Shown piece after piece: positions 9,970 to 62,951 of a DNA stretch of 64,000 nt. The notes beneath the pieces were generated by a model. It did not search any database. It was given only the letters and a program-made list of their open reading frames with translations, and was not told the origin of the DNA. How positions within the stretch are numbered: position 1 is the first letter of the stretch; every line of letters begins with the position of its first letter. The stretch is from Paraflavisolibacter caeni (GTDB taxonomy: Bacteria > Bacteroidota > Bacteroidia > Chitinophagales > Chitinophagaceae). The translations under genes were made by a program, and so were the position numbers. Where the stretch lies: NCBI RefSeq assembly GCF_025628885.1, contig NZ_JAOTIF010000014.1:62001-126000 (forward strand). Direction: 5' to 3'.

Positions 9970-10108
9970 CCAGGTAGTCTTTTCAGGAGAAAAGAGAGGA
10001 AGCAGTCAGGAAATGGGGTGATGAGTAATGAGTGATGATTTGGGATTTCGGAGCAGGGAAATAGGGGATTGAGGTTGGGTGGATAAGGTGGGGGCAAAAT
10101 CTGTTTCG

Positions 10109-10163
10109 TGCTTCAGGTATGCTGTAAGTATGCTTCAGGTGTGCTTCAGGTATGCGGAAGGCA
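10109..10163 (+). repeat. Tandem 11-bp repeat, five units (TGCTTCAGGTA)
   Basis: Successive units are TGCTTCAGGTA, TGCTGTAAGTA, TGCTTCAGGTG, TGCTTCAGGTA and TGCGGAAGGCA. Three are near-identical and two are diverged, all in exact 11-base register. Confidence 0.85.
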
Positions 10164-10275
10164 TGGTCGGTTAGATAAAGGGGATAGTAAGTCGTGGGTA
10201 TATGGTAGATACGGAGTTGATCCGGAGTAGTATAGGAGTGGTCGAGGAGGATGTAGTTAGGATGTACGGCTAATG

Positions 10276-10352
10276 TTTACTATAACTCTACTATATGTTT
10301 ACTATAACTTTACTGTAAGTTTCCTATAAGATTACTATAAGGGCTCTATAAG
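10276..10352 (+). repeat. Tandem 11-bp repeat, seven units (consensus TTTACTATAAG)
   Basis: Units are TTTACTATAAC, TCTACTATATG, TTTACTATAAC, TTTACTGTAAG, TTTCCTATAAG, ATTACTATAAG and GGCTCTATAAG. The same register can be followed upstream through six weaker units from 10210 (for example TACGGAGTTGA, TCCGGAGTAGT, CGAGGAGGATG). The array has the same 11-bp period as the one at 10109 but a different consensus. Confidence 0.85.
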
Positions 10353-10483
10353 ATCACGGCGAAGGGGTGGGAAAATGTTCGGAATGAGGTCAGAATGACG
10401 AATGATTCGAATGAAGAAGGAAGAATGGGGGGTGATAGATGATAGAAAGTAGAGGGGATTTAGAGATTTGGAGTTTGAAGTTT

Positions 10484-10516
10484 GGGGTTTGGGGTTGGAG
10501 TGAAAGGGGTTTAGGG
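10484..10516 (+). other. Four-run G cluster (possible G-quadruplex)
   Basis: GGGG-3-GGGG-11-GGGG-4-GGG on the plus strand, inside about 80 bases that contain almost no C. Folding potential is inferred from the pattern only. Confidence 0.4.
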
Positions 10517-10593
10517 ATGCAGAGGTAATCAAATGTTAGACGGATAGCGCAGATATGGCTTAGATACGGGGTAGGTAGGTAAACTTCTTCGTC

Positions 10594-10625
10594 TTTGCAC
10601 TTGTTGGTTTTATCCCGTAAACTTG
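10594..10625 (+). promoter_or_regulatory. Putative promoter of the M16 peptidase gene
   Basis: TTTG (10594-10597), 20 bases, TAAACTTG (10618-10625). The -7 element differs from TAnnTTTG by one base. It lies 35 bp before the start codon. Confidence 0.45.
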
Positions 10626-10659
10626 CAGACTATTTTATCATCATAAATCAATTATATAC

Positions 10660-11904
10660 GTGGTCAATTTTGAACGTTTTGTTTTAAGCAATGGATTGAG
10701 AGTGATTGTTCACCAGGATACGTCAACCCCAATGGCAGTGGTTAATGTGATGTACGATGTGGGGGCTAAAGATGAGGATACTTCCCGCACAGGTTTTGCC
10801 CATTTGTTTGAGCACCTTATGTTCGGCGGTTCTCTCAACGTTCCGGAATATGACGATCCGTTGCAAATGGCCGGAGGAGAGAACAATGCCTATACCACTA
10901 ACGACCTGACAAATTATTATATACAACTTCCTGCAGAGAACCTGGAAACGGCTTTCTGGCTCGAGAGCGACCGCATGCTATCGCTGGCATTTAGTGAGAA
11001 GAGTCTTGATGTGCAACGGAAAGTAGTATGCGAGGAATTCAAGGAACACTATCTCAACAAACCTTACGGGGATGTATGGCTGAAGATGCGCGAACTGGCT
11101 TACCAGGTGCATCCTTATAAATGGATGACCATAGGCAAGGAGCTTTCACATATTGAAAATGCCCAGTTACAGGACGTAAAGAACTTCTTTTTTAAACACT
11201 ACCGCCCTGTCAATGCGATTTTGGTAGTGGCTGGGAATGTAACTACTGAACAGGTAAGAACCTTAGCAGAGAAGTGGTTTGGCCCGATAGAGCAAGGCGA
11301 AAGGTATGTCCGCCAGTTGCCTAAAGAGCCTGCCCAGAATGCAGACCGTAAGCTGGAAGTGCACGCTGATGTGCCCCTGGACGCGCTGTACAAATGCTGG
11401 CATATTGCCGACAGGGTTGACAAACGCTATTATATAGCCGACCTCATTACAGAAGTACTCGGCGGTGGGCAATCTTCACGCTTATACCAAAGTCTGGTAA
11501 AAGAGCAAAAGCTGTTCTCTAATATTGAATGTTATCACCATGGAACCGTAGATCCAGGTTTACTAACTATTGAAGGCAAACTAGTGAAAGGAGTAAAGAT
11601 TGAAGATGCTGAAGCTGCCATTAACCGGGAACTGGAAAAGCTGAAAACAGATGGTGTGAGTGAATCTGAATTACAGAAGGGCAAGAACAAAACAGAGAGT
11701 GTCATTGCATTTGAGGATATGACGATCATGAACAGGGCCAACAGCCTTGCCTTTTATGAATTGCTTGGCGATGCTAACCTGATGAATACGGAACTGTCAC
11801 GATATCACCAGGTAACGGTACAGGATATCCTGGAGGAAAGCAATGCTATTTTCCGGGAAGGCAATTGCAATACGCTTTGGTATTTATCAAAGAACCTAAG
11901 TTAA
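10660..11904 (+). CDS. M16-family zinc metallopeptidase, catalytic subunit
   Basis: A 414-residue protein starting with GTG at 10660. The zinc-binding HxxEH motif is HLFEH (His48, Glu51, His52), with the distal Glu in VVCEEFKEH (122-130). The C-terminal half has the usual non-catalytic M16 lobe, including the RLYQSLVKEQKLF substrate-positioning region. There is no signal peptide, so the protein is probably cytoplasmic. The next gene, 96 bp downstream, is an M16 protein lacking HxxEH. Together they resemble the two-subunit bacterial M16B peptidases, in which one chain is catalytic and the other helps bind substrate peptides. Confidence 0.93.
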   Translation: MVNFERFVLSNGLRVIVHQDTSTPMAVVNVMYDVGAKDEDTSRTGFAHLFEHLMFGGSLNVPEYDDPLQMAGGENNAYTTNDLTNYYIQLPAENLETAFWLESDRMLSLAFSEKSLDVQRKVVCEEFKEHYLNKPYGDVWLKMRELAYQVHPYKWMTIGKELSHIENAQLQDVKNFFFKHYRPVNAILVVAGNVTTEQVRTLAEKWFGPIEQGERYVRQLPKEPAQNADRKLEVHADVPLDALYKCWHIADRVDKRYYIADLITEVLGGGQSSRLYQSLVKEQKLFSNIECYHHGTVDPGLLTIEGKLVKGVKIEDAEAAINRELEKLKTDGVSESELQKGKNKTESVIAFEDMTIMNRANSLAFYELLGDANLMNTELSRYHQVTVQDILEESNAIFREGNCNTLWYLSKNLS

Positions 11905-13314: not shown

Positions 13315-13344
13315 TCAAGGCAACTCTAAACTATAGACCATAAA
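13291..13344. repeat. 18-bp perfect inverted repeat with 18-bp spacer
   Basis: TTTATGGTCTATAGTTTA (13291-13308) and its exact reverse complement (13327-13344). The right arm continues into further TAAACTATAAACT words, the kind of short TAAACTATA-type repeat common between Bacteroidota genes. A similar word occurs at 51369-51380. Confidence 0.8.
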
Positions 13345-13356
13345 CTATAAACTGAT

Positions 13357-13701
13357 ATGGGATTTATTATTAAAGTTCTTGTTACAGCCGTAGCCGCTTT
13401 TGTAGCAGCCTACTTTCTTGATGGCGTTGATATCGTGGATATCAAAACCACAATCATTGTGGCATTGGTGTTGGCGTTATTGAATACGTTCATCAAACCT
13501 ATCCTTGTTATTTTAACGATTCCTATTACCATTCTGACATTAGGTCTATTTCTGCTGGTGATCAACATCCTGATGGTCAAGTGGACGGCAAGCCTGGTGA
13601 GCGGTTTTACTGTTGATGGCTGGTGGCCTGCACTTTTATTCAGCCTGATTGTTTCTTTTGTAAGCTGGGCATTGGAAAAGATCGTGGGTGCTAATGATTG
13701 A
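13357..13701 (+). CDS. Phage-holin-family IV (YvlD-like) membrane protein
   Basis: A 114-residue protein with four hydrophobic segments (about 3-22, 28-50, 53-80 and 88-108). It matches the widespread PF04020 family by length and by the central LNTFIKPILVILTIPITILTLG segment, quoted here only in part. The family name holin IV is historical. Chromosomal members such as YvlD are not known to lyse cells. There are no phage genes nearby. It is probably an inner-membrane protein with its own promoter inside the inverted repeat just upstream. Confidence 0.85.
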   Translation: MGFIIKVLVTAVAAFVAAYFLDGVDIVDIKTTIIVALVLALLNTFIKPILVILTIPITILTLGLFLLVINILMVKWTASLVSGFTVDGWWPALLFSLIVSFVSWALEKIVGAND

Positions 13702-36806: not shown

Positions 36807-37376
36807 ATGAAGAAAACCGTTATTATTGCTTTAGCCCTTGTTGCTTCTTTTGCTGGCTTTGCGCAAACCTGGAACATCGACAAATCACATTCTAAATTAA
36901 ACTTCACAGTTACCCATCTGCTGATCTCTGACGTGGAAGGTTCTTTCAAAAACATCAATTCAACGTTCACTTCTTCTAAAGCTGACTTTTCTGATGCCGT
37001 TATAGAGCTGACTGCTGATGTAAACAGCATTAACACTGATGATGAAAACAGGGATAAACATTTAAAAAGCCCTGATTTTTTTGATGCAGCTAAATACAAC
37101 GCCTTAACTTTTAAGAGCAAATCTTTTAAAAATGTTGGCGGCAAGAAATATAAACTGGCTGGAGACCTGACAATGCATGGCGTAACGAAACCAGTAGTCC
37201 TGGATGTAGTTTATAATGGTTCTGCTGTACATCCTTATTCTAAGAAAACAGTTGCCGGCTTTAAGATCTCTGGCACTTTAAAGCGTTCTGAATTTGGTGT
37301 TGGCACCGCTACTCCTACAGCTGTTGTAGGCGATGAAGTTGCCCTGGTAGCAAATGCAGAGTTTATTAAAGATTAA
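36807..37376 (+). CDS. YceI-family periplasmic protein
   Basis: A 189-residue secreted lipocalin-like protein, with signal peptide MKKTVIIALALVASFAGFAQ and the YceI barrel (WNIDKSHSKLNFTVTHLLIS, DLTMHGVTKPVVLDVVYNG, RSEFGVGT). YceI proteins bind long isoprenoid or lipid-like molecules in a tunnel. A second YceI gene occurs at 49563-50165 in this window, next to a porin. This one stands alone with a good terminator. Confidence 0.92.
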   Translation: MKKTVIIALALVASFAGFAQTWNIDKSHSKLNFTVTHLLISDVEGSFKNINSTFTSSKADFSDAVIELTADVNSINTDDENRDKHLKSPDFFDAAKYNALTFKSKSFKNVGGKKYKLAGDLTMHGVTKPVVLDVVYNGSAVHPYSKKTVAGFKISGTLKRSEFGVGTATPTAVVGDEVALVANAEFIKD

Positions 37377-37380
37377 AGTA

Positions 37381-37408
37381 GTGAATGGTCAATGGTGAAT
37401 GGTGAATT
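37381..37408 (+). repeat. Short GTGAATGG-type microrepeat
   Basis: GTGAATGGTCAATG followed by GTGAATG and GTGAATT, an intergenic word seen widely in Bacteroidota, with no gene attached. Confidence 0.5.
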
Positions 37409-37449
37409 GTGTTAGTCATTGATCCCCTCAATAAAGATCTGTTTCATTA

Positions 37450-52937: not shown

Positions 52938-53034
52938 GCCTAAAGAGCATAAGGCGAAGGCTGCATACTGTAACCATCAATCCGCTCCTAAAGCAAACTA
53001 AATCGTAAATCGTAACTTGTAAATTGTACTTCAT

Positions 53035-54282
53035 ATGGCAAGTATCAACCTAATTGAGGCTTTTCAGGACTTTAAAGATGCTGAAAATATAGACCGTCCG
53101 ACCATGATGCGTGTGGTGGAAGATGTTTTTAAAACATTGCTGCGCAAGAAATTTGGCAGTGATGAGAACTTTGACGTAATTGTAAACGCAGAAAAGGGTG
53201 ACTTGGAAATCATTCGCCGCCGTATGATTGTTGAAGACGGAGAAGTAATTGATTCCAACGCTGAGATCGCTTATTCAGACGCCGTAAAGATTGAGCCGGA
53301 CTTCGAAGTAGGTGAAGAACTATATGAAGAAATTGACCTGTACGATTTCGGCCGCAGGGCTATCCTTGCCGCAAAACAAACATTGGCAAGCCGTATTTCT
53401 GACTTGAAGAAAAACATTCTTGCTAAAAAATATGCCGACCGCATCGGGGAGATCATCAGTGCCGAGGTTTACCAGGTATGGAAAAAAGAAATCCTGCTGC
53501 TGGATGAAGAAAGTAACGAGCTGATCCTTCCTAAAAGCGAACAAATACCCCAGGATTATTTCAAAAAAGGTGAAACCATCCGTGCCGTAGTAAAAAAGGT
53601 AGATTTAAAAAATAATAATCCGGTAATTATACTTTCCAGAACTTCACCCGACTTTTTGGCAAAGCTTTTGGAAATAGAAGTACCAGAAATATTCGACGGT
53701 CTGATCGTTATCAAGAAGATCGTCCGCGACCCGGGCGAAAGAGCAAAAGTGGCTGTCGAATCTTACGACGACCGTATTGACCCTGTTGGTGCCTGCGTTG
53801 GTATGAAAGGTAGCCGGATTCATGGCATTGTACGCGAACTGAAAAATGAAAATATTGACGTCATTAACTGGACATCCAACATCCAATTACTGATTCAGCG
53901 TTCTTTAACTCCGGCTAAGGTCACTACAATGGAATTGGAACAGGAAACTAAACATGCAAGTGTTTACCTCAAACCAGACCAGGTTTCTCTGGCTATCGGC
54001 CGCCGTGGCGTGAACATCAAACTCGCCTGCGAACTTACTGGTTACGATATTGACGTATTCCGCGACACAGAAGGTGAAGTAGAAGAATTTGATATCGATC
54101 TGGAAGAATTCAGCGATGAAATTGAACCTTGGATCATTGAAGAATTGAAACGTATAGGCTGCGATACAGCCCGCAGCGTATTGGATCTTACCCCTGAAGA
54201 ACTGGAACGCAGAACAGACCTGGAAAGAGTTACAATTGATGAAATAAGAAAAGTTTTACAGGCTGAATTTGAAAAAGGATAA
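53035..54282 (+). CDS. nusA: Transcription termination/antitermination factor NusA
   Basis: A 415-residue NusA: N-terminal polymerase-binding domain (1-130), S1 domain (about 140-200), and two KH domains with GACVGMKGSRIHGIVREL and SLAIGRRGVNIKLACELTG. A short acidic C-terminus ends in a helix-hairpin-helix-like part (GCDTARSVLDLTPEELERR). It lies between rimP and infB. It acts in pausing, termination and ribosomal RNA antitermination. Confidence 0.96.
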   Translation: MASINLIEAFQDFKDAENIDRPTMMRVVEDVFKTLLRKKFGSDENFDVIVNAEKGDLEIIRRRMIVEDGEVIDSNAEIAYSDAVKIEPDFEVGEELYEEIDLYDFGRRAILAAKQTLASRISDLKKNILAKKYADRIGEIISAEVYQVWKKEILLLDEESNELILPKSEQIPQDYFKKGETIRAVVKKVDLKNNNPVIILSRTSPDFLAKLLEIEVPEIFDGLIVIKKIVRDPGERAKVAVESYDDRIDPVGACVGMKGSRIHGIVRELKNENIDVINWTSNIQLLIQRSLTPAKVTTMELEQETKHASVYLKPDQVSLAIGRRGVNIKLACELTGYDIDVFRDTEGEVEEFDIDLEEFSDEIEPWIIEELKRIGCDTARSVLDLTPEELERRTDLERVTIDEIRKVLQAEFEKG

Positions 54283-54397: not shown

Positions 54398-57300
54398 ATG
54401 GCAGAAATAATAACACCCAGGTTAATGGCCGCAGCCAAAGAATTCAACATTGGTAAAGATACCCTTGTGGACTTTTTGACGGCAAAAGGTTTTAATAAAG
54501 ACGACCTGAAACCTACCTCCAAGCTGACAGAGGATATGTACCGTGCTCTGCAGGCTGAATTTCAAAGCGATAAGGTAGCAAAGCTGAAAAGCGTTCAAAT
54601 CGACTTACCAAAAGGCGCAGCTGCTGATGCTAAACGCAAAAAGGAAGAGGAGGAAGTTGCCTATCGTGATAAGCCTGCTGCTCGCCCGGAAATAATCAAA
54701 CCGGCGAAAAAAGAAGAGCCTGAACCAGTTGCAGAAGCTGCACCAGCTCCACAACCTGAGCCTCTACCTGCTCCCGAACCAGAGCCAGTAAAGACTGAAA
54801 CTCCTGACGTTATAAGATTGGAAGCCCCTGAATTGGAAGGGCCCAAGATCGTTGATAAAATAGACTTGTCTCAATTTGATGCGCGTCCTAAAAAGACTGA
54901 ACCTAAAGAACAGCCTAAACCACAGGTGGAAGAACCTGTTGCAAAAGCTGAAGAAGAAGTTCAGCCTAAGATGGAAGCGCAACCAGAAACACCGTCTACT
55001 CCGGAGGTACAGCCTCAACCGGAAATTCAACCGGAAACAACTCCGGAATACAAACCTGAACCTCAGCCTGAGGTTCAGCCAGAAGTTCAGCCTGAGCCTC
55101 AACCACTGCCACAGCCTCAACCAGAGACTGAGCCAGTGGCAGAAAGCCAACCTGAACCTCAGCCTGCTCATCAACCACAGGAAGAACCAGTGGCTGAAAG
55201 TCAAACAATAGAAGCACCGGAAGTGACACCTCAAGCTCCAGAAGCAACAGAAACAGGGCCGGTAATCGAAAATATTAGGGCTGAAAGAATTGAAGGTCCT
55301 AAGATACTTGGTAAAATTCAACTACCGGTAGATAGCGATACCCGTCCTAAACACGACGAAAAAAGGAAACGCAAACGTATTCCTATTGAAAAGAAAGATA
55401 CAAGAGATACAAGACAAGATTTCCATAAAGGTCAGGGGCAAGGCCAAACTCAAGGACAAGCTCCTGCAGCCAACAGACCTCCTGGCGGTTTCCAAGTGCA
55501 CAAGCAAGGCCAAGGCGGTGGACAAAGACCTGGCGGACAAGGTCAGGGCCAACAAGGTGGAGGCCGTTTCAACCGCGACCAGAAAGGCAGACCCCAACAA
55601 GGCGGTGGCAGATTTGGTACACCTCGCATTGCAGCTAGAGAGGATAAGCAAATTGACGAAAAAGAAATTCAAAGGAAGATTCAGGAAACACAAGCCAAAT
55701 TGTCTGGTGGTACCGGTAAAGGTAAAAGCCTGAAAGCAAGACTGCGTCGTGAAAAACGTCATGAAATGGCAGACGCTGCAGAAGGTGCTACTGACAACAA
55801 GCTGCAGGTAACTGAATTTATTTCTGTGAGTGAGTTGGCCAACCTGATGGACGTTTCATTTGCTGAAGTGATCAGTAAATGTATGGGCCTTGGTATCATG
55901 GTATCCATCAACCAGCGTCTCGATGCAGAGGTAATTGAATTGGTAGCCAGTGAATTCGGTTACGACGTGGAATTCATCGACGTGGAAAAACAAATGGAAA
56001 TGGAGGAAGAAGACGAGGTGGATCACGAAGATCATCTGGAACCCCGCTCTCCAATTGTTACCATCATGGGTCACGTTGACCACGGTAAAACCTCTTTGCT
56101 CGACTACATCCGTAGGGCTAACGTAGTTGCCGGTGAGGCCGGGGGTATCACCCAGCACATTGGTGCCTACCAGGTAAACCTGCCAAATGGCAAAGACATC
56201 ACCTTCCTGGATACTCCTGGTCACGAAGCGTTTACCGCCATGCGTGCCCGCGGTGCCAAGATTACGGATATTGCAGTGATCGTAATTGCTGCAGACGATG
56301 CCATCATGCCACAAACCCGCGAGGCCATCAGCCACGCACAAGCGGCCGGCGTACCGATGATCTTCGCGATCAACAAAATAGATAAAGATGGAGCCAACCC
56401 TCAAAAGATATACGAACAATTGGCAGGCATGAACCTGTTGGTGGAAGAATGGGGCGGTAAATACCAAAGCCAGGAAATATCTGCCAAAAAAGGTCTCAAT
56501 GTCGACCTGCTCCTGGAAAAGATATTGCTGGAAGCAGAACTGCTCGACCTGAAAGCCAACCCGAATCGTGAAGCCAGTGGCAGCATCATTGAAGCAACGC
56601 TGGATAAAGGCCGTGGCTATGTTGCAACTATCCTGGTTCAGAATGGTTCATTGAATAATGGTGATATTGTGGTGAGCGGTCAGCACTATGGCCGTGTGAA
56701 AGCCATGTTCAACGAACGGAACAAAAAGGTGAATGAAGCACCTCCAAGTACACCGGTATTGATCCTGGGCTTGAACGGCGCGCCTCAGGCTGGTGAGAAG
56801 TTCAAAGTATACGACGACGAAGCAGAAGCTAAAGAAGTGGCCAACCGCCGTGCGCAAATCCTCCGCGAGCAGGGTATGCGTGCCAAGAAACACATCACAC
56901 TGGATGAGATCGGCCGCCGCTTGGCATTGGGTAACTTTAAAGAACTGAAAGTGATCATCAAAGGTGACGTGGACGGTTCGGTAGAAGCCCTGAGCGACTC
57001 ACTGCAAAAACTGTCAACAGAAGAAATCGTGGTGAGCGTAATTCACAAAGGCGTAGGCCAGATCAACGAAAGCGACGTGGTGCTGGCAGAAGCATCTGAT
57101 GCAGTGATCATAGGCTTTAACGTTCGTCCTTCTATGCAGGCGAACCGCCTGGCAGACGGCGCAGGTATTCAGATTAGAACTTACTCTATCATCTACACCG
57201 CCATCGACGAGATCAAGAGCGCGATGGAAGGTATGTTGGAACCAAAAGTTCAGGAAAAAATCGTTGCCAACGTAGAAGTAAGAGAAGTCTACAAATTCGA

Positions 57301-60723: not shown

Positions 60724-62919
60724 GTGCCTCCCGTTCATCAACTTGCCGCCATTCTGTTTGCCGACATTGCCGGTAACACGATGCTTATGGACACAGATGA
60801 AAAACGGGCATCTATTTTAATGAAACATTATCATCATGAACTGAACAGGATTGTTTCATTACATGGAGGCAAAGTACTAAATGATAACGACGATAGTAAC
60901 CTGTGTATTTTCCCAAGTGCGACTGATGCAGTAAACTGTAGTATAGAGCTACATAGAGCGTTGCTATTTGAACCCGCTGTTCCCCTGAAAATCAGTCTGC
61001 ACATCGGCGAAATATTTCTTGAAAATGATAAAGCCACAGGCGATGCAGTAAAGATCGCCGCACGTATTCAAGCCCTTGGCCAGGAAAACACCATCTTACT
61101 TTCAAAAGAACTTTTTGATAAGATCAAAAATCACCCTGAGTTCAAAGCAGTATCTCTTGGTCGATTCTATTGTGAAGAAATTGATGAAACCATTGAAGTT
61201 TTTGCACTCACAAATGAAGGATTATGGGTGCCAAAGCGGCAAAACCTCATTGGCAAACTAAAAAAGCTAAGTACACTAGTTCGAATATTAATGATTGCTG
61301 CTTTATTAATTGGCGTACTTGCAGCCGCACTCTTTTTATCTAAACAATTTTTGAATAAAGCGCCCCTTTCAACAAAAGAAAATTCAATTGCAATCCTCTA
61401 CTTTGCCAATATGAGTGGTGATCCTAAACAGGAATATTTCTGTGATGGAATTACTGAGGAAATCATCACAAGACTCTCTATGATCAGCGGATTAAGAGTG
61501 AAAAGTCGTACTTCCGTTTTACAGTACAAAAATGATAAGAAGACAGCAAAAGAAATAGCCAGGGAATTAGGTGTGAGTAATATTCTGGAAGGAAGCATCA
61601 GGAAAGAAGGCGATAGTATCCGCATTACAGTTCAATTGATTGATGCAAAAAATGATGAACACGTTTGGAGTGAAAACTATGACAGGGAATTAAAAAACAT
61701 CTTTGATCTACAATCCGATATTGCGCAACATGTCGCTGAAAAATTTGGAATGAAGCTATCAAATGATGACCGGAAAGAAATTACCACATCTCCCACTCAA
61801 AATACGGAAGCCTATGACAAGTATTTACAGGCACGCAACCTTACTTTTATAGAAACAGGCTTAGGCGGAGAATACAGCAACACCCAAAAGGCAATCGCCC
61901 TTTTAAAACAAGCAATTCAAATAGATCCGACTTTTTCTGATGCTTATGCCTTATTGAGTAAAAACTATTCATATTACAGTCCTGTCGCTCCATATTCAAT
62001 GCAAATACCAGATTCAGCTTTATTAATGGCAAAGAAAGCCATTCAATATGGACCGGAAAGAGAAAATGGATTTGAAGCACTTGCATATGCATATTTCAGA
62101 AAAGGCAATTTAGATGAAGCATTAAAATGGCTACTCAAATGCCATGAACTGGTGCCTTATTCTACCGTTGGAACTTCCGCAATTACTGATATCGTGGATA
62201 TTTACCTGAAGAAAAACAAGTATGGAACGGCTATGGAATGGCTTTTGAATGCCATAAAATATGATCCGAAAGAAATAAAAAACTATATAAAAAAGGCTGA
62301 GGTCTTTGAACGCCTTGGCTTATTAGATTCTGTGAAGCACAACATTGATTTAGCAAAAAGAATGAGGCCTGAAAAAGCAAATGCCGAGCTTTTTGATGCC
62401 TTAATTTACCTTTATTTCGGATGGAATTATGAAGACTATAGACATCTGGTTAAATCTGCTTTGCCAAATGATGAGAAAGAGATAGCCTATCAACTGGGCA
62501 TATTTTATTTGTTTCATAGAGACTGGAGAAAGGCAAGCTCATTATACCCTATTTCATCAAACCCGGATGATATGGATGCAGGCCTGGTTAATATACATTT
62601 AGGAAATAAAGCAGAGGGAACACAATTTCTCAACAAAGCAATAGAACATAGAAAAAATGTAAAGGGCTCATTAACTGCCGACCATTTTTATGATATCAGC
62701 CGGTGTTACGCTGCATTAAAAGATCCCATGTATGCCGGATACCTGGATAAAGCAATTGAAATGGGATGGCACAATTATGCTTTCTTTACACATGATCCTT
62801 TTTACGACTTTGTAAAAGACGAACCGGAATTTAAAAGGCTGCATCGCCGCATCACTGAAAGGAATGAACTGTTCAAAGCAGAAGTGAACGCTGTTTTGAA
62901 AAAATTTTACGGCTACTAG
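60724..62919 (+). CDS. Degenerate class III cyclase - TolB-like - TPR membrane protein
   Basis: About 731 residues from a GTG at 60724; an ATG at 60583 would add 47 residues without family support. The order is a class III nucleotide cyclase domain (1-155, beginning QLAAILFADIAGN), a transmembrane helix (about 180-200, ILMIAALLIGVLAAALFL), a TolB/FlgO-like domain (SIAILYFANMSGDPKQEYFC... NILEGSIRKEGDSIRITVQL), and a C-terminal TPR region. In the cyclase domain the first metal Asp stays (FADIAG), but the usual GDG reads DDS, the purine-specifying Lys is Asn, and the transition-state Asn before AAR is Lys (DAVKIAAR). It is likely a sensor with little or altered cyclase activity. Confidence 0.8.
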   Translation: MPPVHQLAAILFADIAGNTMLMDTDEKRASILMKHYHHELNRIVSLHGGKVLNDNDDSNLCIFPSATDAVNCSIELHRALLFEPAVPLKISLHIGEIFLENDKATGDAVKIAARIQALGQENTILLSKELFDKIKNHPEFKAVSLGRFYCEEIDETIEVFALTNEGLWVPKRQNLIGKLKKLSTLVRILMIAALLIGVLAAALFLSKQFLNKAPLSTKENSIAILYFANMSGDPKQEYFCDGITEEIITRLSMISGLRVKSRTSVLQYKNDKKTAKEIARELGVSNILEGSIRKEGDSIRITVQLIDAKNDEHVWSENYDRELKNIFDLQSDIAQHVAEKFGMKLSNDDRKEITTSPTQNTEAYDKYLQARNLTFIETGLGGEYSNTQKAIALLKQAIQIDPTFSDAYALLSKNYSYYSPVAPYSMQIPDSALLMAKKAIQYGPERENGFEALAYAYFRKGNLDEALKWLLKCHELVPYSTVGTSAITDIVDIYLKKNKYGTAMEWLLNAIKYDPKEIKNYIKKAEVFERLGLLDSVKHNIDLAKRMRPEKANAELFDALIYLYFGWNYEDYRHLVKSALPNDEKEIAYQLGIFYLFHRDWRKASSLYPISSNPDDMDAGLVNIHLGNKAEGTQFLNKAIEHRKNVKGSLTADHFYDISRCYAALKDPMYAGYLDKAIEMGWHNYAFFTHDPFYDFVKDEPEFKRLHRRITERNELFKAEVNAVLKKFYGY

Positions 62920-62951
62920 AAAATACGGCTACTAGAAAAGTGGTAATGAGA

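Follow-up and report, generated by a model that had tools for sequence, protein, structure and literature searches.

The window (the whole stretch of 64,000 nucleotides of Paraflavisolibacter caeni DNA that was analysed) contains an intergenic gap of ~690 bp (9970–10659) that runs from a gene for an aspartyl protease with a PDZ domain to a gene for an M16 peptidase, as judged from the Pfam families of both genes and the list of open reading frames. Within the gap, and read here on the plus strand, lies a block that comprises some 22 units, each of 11 bp. It opens with CAAAATCTGTTTCG (10095–10108), a left end which a fuzzy-motif search and inspection of the flanks found to be common to what we term type-1 heads. 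This is followed by five units of the TGCTTCAGGTA kind (array A, 10109–10163), ten degenerate units with GATACGGAGTT-like words (10164–10273) and seven units of the TTTACTATAAG kind (array B, 10274–10350).

An earlier note on this DNA had described two arrays of five and seven units in strict 11-bp register, separated by degenerate units of the same period, and this layout was borne out both by Tandem Repeats Finder (TRF) and by autocorrelation. TRF reported period 11 at 10109–10155 (4.3 copies, 77% matches) and again at 10275–10341 (6.1 copies, 76% matches), and the units of array A were also read individually. Over 10109–10352 lag 11 dominates, with a match fraction of 0.592 (z 10.7) that was reached by 0 of 300 dinucleotide shuffles; the match fraction at lag 22 is 0.514. 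The degenerate middle (10155–10275) retains the period, with a lag-11 match fraction of 0.473 (z 3.9; 0 of 300 dinucleotide shuffles). The arrays are strict in their register but not in the words that had been named for them: two of the five units are identical to TGCTTCAGGTA and none of the seven to TTTACTATAAG. Along the block the units drift in sequence while the register is kept.

The 11-bp period leads in the block but not in the rest of the gap (autocorrelation over 9970–10660 had been proposed as a check). In the flanks (9970–10094 and 10353–10640) the leading period is lag 7, and lag 11 reaches z 2.8 on the right and −0.5 on the left. On the left, the 7-bp period is located by a period scan in a stretch that is purine-rich on the plus strand (10009–10061), and on the right TRF and the period scan place it in TTTGGAG-like repeats (10454–10509, plus strand). 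Non-coding stretches of 7-bp period also occur elsewhere in the window (13318–13366, 37362–37425 and 52987–53043), as do lag-12 and 18-bp repeats that are perhaps inside a coding region (55009–55148) and a 16-bp unit in exact tandem duplication (62908–62939).

Dispersal of the block and change by whole units

Copies of the block were sought by blastn, using 10095–10380 as the query, in the 7.01 Mb and 89 contigs of its own genome. With 40 of 85 first-look candidates scored there were at least 48 matches at E ≤ 10 and at least 41 at E ≤ 1e-6, the latter including the window copy and at least 40 others; these are counts of matches, not loci, some of which adjoin each other, and at least two of the 40 others (C11 and C78) are confined to the query's right edge or flank. 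The extent of the entire dispersed block, from its type-1 head to ...TATAAGG (10095–10342, plus strand), was taken from the same search. Ten further copies are near full length, aligning from query position 1–2 to 248–257, and they contain identical unusual units in identical order (TGCTTCAGGTA, TGCTGTAAGTA, TGCTTCAGGTG and so on). Because copies elsewhere keep the same unit order, the words of arrays A and B are the left and right parts of one block, which vindicates the suspicion that two words with one period had not arisen by one simple local expansion. Genome-wide searches with doubled words gave 73, 107 and 105 matches, and the reversed-pattern control gave 0 in each; the first two, allowing at most 3 mismatches, answer for the units of both arrays (107 for TTTACTATAAG). 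The fuzzy motif found 34 type-1 heads in the loci examined in this genome, a few of which are possibly chance.

Lengths of the window-type copies are equal modulo 11 in 8 of 12 cases. Alignment gaps of at least 3 positions are multiples of 11 in 94 of 180 instances for window-type copies and 283 of 460 for a sister family, although the pairs lack independence and gaps of this size come easily in periodic sequence, for which reasons the length-modulo-11 count is the safer evidence. Since unit order is kept and lengths are mostly equal modulo 11, we can conclude that the block spread whole and afterwards gained or lost units. Slippage-born satellite DNA at this single site, which the earlier note had raised as an alternative, would also produce tandem units and length changes by whole units, but it is hardly credible here: the dozens of dispersed matches in the same genome, among which the longer keep one order of units, contradict local slippage alone as a general explanation. 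What stands of the proposal is the gain and loss of whole units between copies of a block that is itself dispersed.

The abundance of such arrays was estimated from a random sample of the genome (20 stretches of 20 kb, 400 kb in all), in which lag 11 marks 794 positions per 100 kb of non-coding DNA as against 20 in coding DNA, the split being that of a crude ORF caller. Lag 7 comes second among the non-coding periods (369 per 100 kb), and the other non-zero lags in a scan of 5–40 were 22 (253), 14 (95), 20 (41), 21 (24), 15 (6) and 33 (6). The lag-11 arrays of the sample fall in 11 intergenic loci, one of which (in L088) may be chance, and extrapolation therefore gives roughly 190 loci per genome with a wide error. 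Another 11-bp word family, GGTCTCTATAA, is also intergenic in this genome (L088:16123–16186, L089:13945–14018 and L099:4548–4633), and six loci (L028, L039, L096, L122, L141 and L151) share a module around GGACAAAAGCGGTCATTTCCTGCC to the right of a CGAAGGATG tail. In L036 and L043 a common stretch continues as far as the end of each contig, a pattern suggestive of a longer repeat at which the assembly broke off.

The same gap was compared, as had been proposed, in relatives of the same genus. A close orthologue of the protease is present in 15 of 17 other genomes of the genus, and the M16 gene adjoins it in 14 of these 15 loci. Measured in the same way from tblastn ends, the gap between the two genes is 55–280 bp in 14 relatives and 694 bp here, and a lag-11 signal is absent from all 15 of the relatives' protease loci; a lag-7 signal appears in three of their gaps (G015, G014 and G006). 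The short gaps without a lag-11 array thus indicate either a gain of the block in its own lineage or its loss in every other one. Among the relatives compared, whose proteases are 60–70% identical to the one here, no polymorphic copy was observed.

Other 11-bp families within and beyond the genus

Among 58 genomes searched with the block, the sole match outside its own genome was a weak one in G007, a genome of the same genus. This genome contains arrays of its own, with 14–19 units and words unlike those of the window, and a G007 array used as the query gave 15 matches in G007 and 10 weak matches in the window's genome (G000). A third 11-bp family was found in G015, also of the same genus, where it has 42 matches, while the search of 17 further genomes gave no match at E ≤ 0.01; 27 of the 42 lie on the putative leading strand as judged from positions and GC skews, a weak bias. 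In a 200-kb sample of G003, a complete genome of the same genus, there was no lag-11 signal.

Further afield, Pedobacter nyackensis has genuine 11-bp arrays with two kinds of word. An exact search of named genomes, from which near relatives were possibly left out, returned four loci, in this Pedobacter, a Thalassotalea, an Okeania and Providencia, of which the last is a probable chance match. The distantly related Thalassotalea (L058) and Okeania (L060) have short 11-bp arrays with a word similar to GGTATACT, and the Okeania locus also contains 7-bp and 8-bp arrays. When TTACTATR at 11-bp spacing was sought in 147 genomes of the family, a sample that excluded G015 and G007, the window's genome alone stood out with 87 matches (control 3), while the other genomes gave at most 4 matches with controls of up to 5. 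The GGTATACT word is likewise almost confined to its own genome among 395 genomes of the class, with two others giving one match each. To judge from these searches, the specific words are largely restricted to single species. Words containing GTAY or TATG recur, by eye, in the G000, G007, G015 and Pedobacter families. The gap sequence had no match in phages, one leader-bearing element (see below) had none in plasmids, and one leader pattern had none in viral contigs.

Families of satellite-like repeats are not usually expected in the intergenic DNA of bacteria, which is considered too compact for them. The dozens of whole or partial copies here, and the different versions in related species, indicate a little-known type of repeat element and not a local curiosity. 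The 11-bp register outlasts changes of word within a block, between the families of one genome and between species, which makes for a clean system in which to ask whether the mechanism of copying or a protein bound to the DNA keeps the repeat unit to one turn of the helix. The findings also suggest that in such genomes these elements drive intergenic length and perhaps the breaks between contigs.

Resemblance to known elements and proposed mode of spread

The closest known kind of element is BrickBuilt of Porphyromonas gingivalis, a minisatellite within a MITE, which in the portions of its description used here is intergenic, has a limited host range, reaches 19 copies in one strain and is built of spacerless tandem 23-bp units with leader and tail parts (PMC4596501). 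Whole units are gained or lost between strains, the leader and tail have promoter activity, and the same portions report no transposase remnant inside (PMC4596501). The window block is dispersed, multi-copy and intergenic and consists of spacerless tandem units, as a BrickBuilt-like MITE would. On these partial descriptions the resemblance extends to the limited host range, to the gain and loss of whole units and to the phylum, Bacteroidota, which the promoter-like motif and gene content also suggest; it may extend to leader and tail parts, which here occur in sister copies. The differences are that the unit here is 11 bp and not 23, that each block contains several words, that matches are more numerous (at least 41 at E ≤ 1e-6), that inverted ends are found only in tail-bearing sister copies and that, with PF01797 as the one transposase family searched, no insertion sequence with matching ends was identified. 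Taking these together, we consider it likely that 10095–10342 is one of many copies of a non-coding intergenic element that is particular to its species and built from tandem 11-bp units. It would be a minisatellite-bearing, MITE-like and non-autonomous element of the BrickBuilt kind. The whole block would be copied by some enzyme, or by recombination between copies, and then be resized in 11-bp steps by slippage or unequal recombination.

Several hallmarks of mobility were looked for. Target-site duplication was not found around 21 cleanly bounded sister elements (mean match 1.00, compared with 1.20 for re-paired ends; p 0.83), a test which covers the sister elements, the window-type copies differing at their right end. 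A search for the Y1/RAYT transposase family (PF01797), the sole family for which a mobilising enzyme was sought, gave 0 matches in the genome, while the same model matches in 5 of 14 control genomes; REP or BIME elements with a RAYT are rejected on this basis. Imperfect inverted ends are present in tail-bearing type-1 copies, where they beat all 500 shuffles in five of nine and were equalled by at most 7 shuffles in seven of nine (18 and 95 in the other two), although the units look partly palindromic and such matches are therefore easier to obtain. The window copy itself ends in TATAAGG and has neither a leader nor the tail that forms inverted ends.

Other repeats resemble the element in part. 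Plasmid R1 contains parC, two sets of five 11-bp iterons bound by ParR, which resembles the present arrays in that its 11-bp direct repeats all face the same side of the helix; parC, however, is a single plasmid site with a partner operon, whereas here there are many loci and no partner gene was found. The STAR elements of Staphylococcus have a unit whose length and sequence differ from those of the 11-bp element. They are interspersed intergenic direct repeats at species-specific loci that expand and contract, all of which is shared, but in the parts of the account relied on here they contain spacer sequences, unlike the spacerless units of the block (PMC3532100). The heptamer repeat (TAACTGA) and other long simple sequence repeats, as outlined in the sections that we draw on, which relay a survey of units of 1–11 nt (Mrazek 2007), are intergenic direct repeats of short units, some of them in Bacteroidetes (PMC4679880). 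The 7-bp flanks of the block look like repeats of this heptamer type. The block does not: a heptamer repeat is a run of one short word, whereas here a long block of several words, few of whose units equal the named ones, occurs whole at many sites, and some of the families have a promoter-like leader. A long simple repeat is thus rejected for the block. Among the titles and abstract openings listed in the literature searches, no dispersed element with an 11-bp unit is described.

Leaders, transcription and candidate functions

Some families begin with a leader. Upstream of the type-2 sister array (TCAGATCGAAGCATAGTCGAA...), the motif TAYCTTTAG occurs 75–115 bp before 20 of 20 heads, which had been found by the head alone, and TTG stands 18–20 bp before TAYCTTTA in 20 type-2 copies; the leader is conserved and ~100 nt long. 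At six loci a leader, a type-2 array and a type-1 head follow one another in the same order, whereas 28 of the 34 type-1 heads, that of the window included, have no leader within the 600 bp upstream (356 bp for one). For Bacteroides, the consulted part of one report gives a primary sigma motif of TAnnTTTG at −7 with TTTG near −33, the latter not found in Flavobacterium (PMC7366714). The type-2 box recurs at −7, as TA[TC]CTTT[AG], in 18 of 18 G015 leaders (the best 18 of 42 matches, with the box as alignment anchor), and these same leaders are T-rich. The leader-bearing sister family is probably transcribed.

The G015 leader also contains a predicted hairpin. Two-sided changes occur at all five of its pairs (14 cells; the shuffles gave 6.1 ± 2.2, and 0 of 500 reached that count), and a shift of the pairing by one to three columns lowers the number to at most 8. 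Prediction and covariation test used a single alignment, however, and two of the five measures do not stand out (40 and 53 of 500 shuffles). A less likely reading is that the arrays form the main part of a non-coding RNA transcribed from many copies, with promoter, leader, 11-nt units and tail, of which the window copy would be a partial and promoterless example. The two boxes, the G015 hairpin and the constant order at six loci are consistent with such an RNA, as are the folding of one composite sister transcript (z −6.2) and of one tail-bearing sister element (z −4.6). Against this, two other transcripts fold like shuffles (z −0.11 and −0.12), none of the 17 pairs predicted for the G000 leader has a two-sided change, eight G007 copies have no common leader by eye, and only tRNAs reach the Rfam gathering score in the window and in 15 loci. 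For the window block itself, folding does not exceed that of shuffles (as RNA, z −0.55 and +1.43; as DNA, +0.56), and a conserved stem is rejected for it.

Across 32 loci, the neighbouring genes are divergent in 10, tandem in 10 and 8, and convergent in 4 (raw counts). With orientations so mixed, there is no suggestion that the element acts as terminator or promoter for its neighbours, and the window copy probably influences the protease gene and the M16 gene little, if at all.

Eleven base pairs is close to one helical turn. Repeats of this length could place a core on one face of the helix for cooperative binding by a nucleoid or regulatory protein, with the register under selection, and the persistence of that register while the words drift, together with the GTAY and TATG words recurring between species, argues in this direction. 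The best hint of a phased recognition core is the uneven conservation in six G007 loci, picked without a motif among the copies fetched (L242 and others were left out): non-consensus letters are distributed unevenly over the 11 phases (0 of 2000 permutations in each), five adjacent phases scoring 0.74–1.00 and the others 0.32–0.79. Units inherited from one another would give uneven columns too, however, and conservation is not uneven in the window arrays taken alone (p 0.41 and 0.65; 0.04 for the whole block) or in three short G015 arrays of 2–5 units. With no clear orientation preference relative to genes at the 32 loci and no candidate protein, we regard a phased binding array as rather doubtful. 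The same near-match to a helical turn had led the earlier note to propose curved DNA, and TA steps are indeed mildly phased (vector sum 6.8 at 11 bp, with ~5.4 expected by chance). The absence of AAAA, TTTT and AATT from 10109–10352 leaves A-tract curvature unsupported, however, and intrinsic curvature as a selected property is very improbable.

A wider unification can be formulated, although we think it unlikely. It would place the arrays in one class of intergenic elements, found in at least three species of the genus and perhaps in Pedobacter, with words particular to each species, a common 11-bp pitch and a short conserved core. In certain families the elements would act as small non-coding transcription units, each with a promoter and a covarying leader hairpin, the 11-nt units would serve as a multivalent phased platform for one protein, and spread would be SINE- or MITE-like.

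A multi-copy protein of 203 residues (MARQAGPLF...) is encoded in G015 ~290–320 bp downstream of 4 of 18 array copies (~320 bp in L220, L221 and L223; ~290 bp in L219). It had no Pfam match above the cut-off and no NCBIfam match. By tblastn it has no homologue in the G000 array loci examined, with flanks of ~1.5–2.5 kb, and to judge from these loci it is not a general partner of the arrays; one weak match was obtained in the random G000 sample, in L090.
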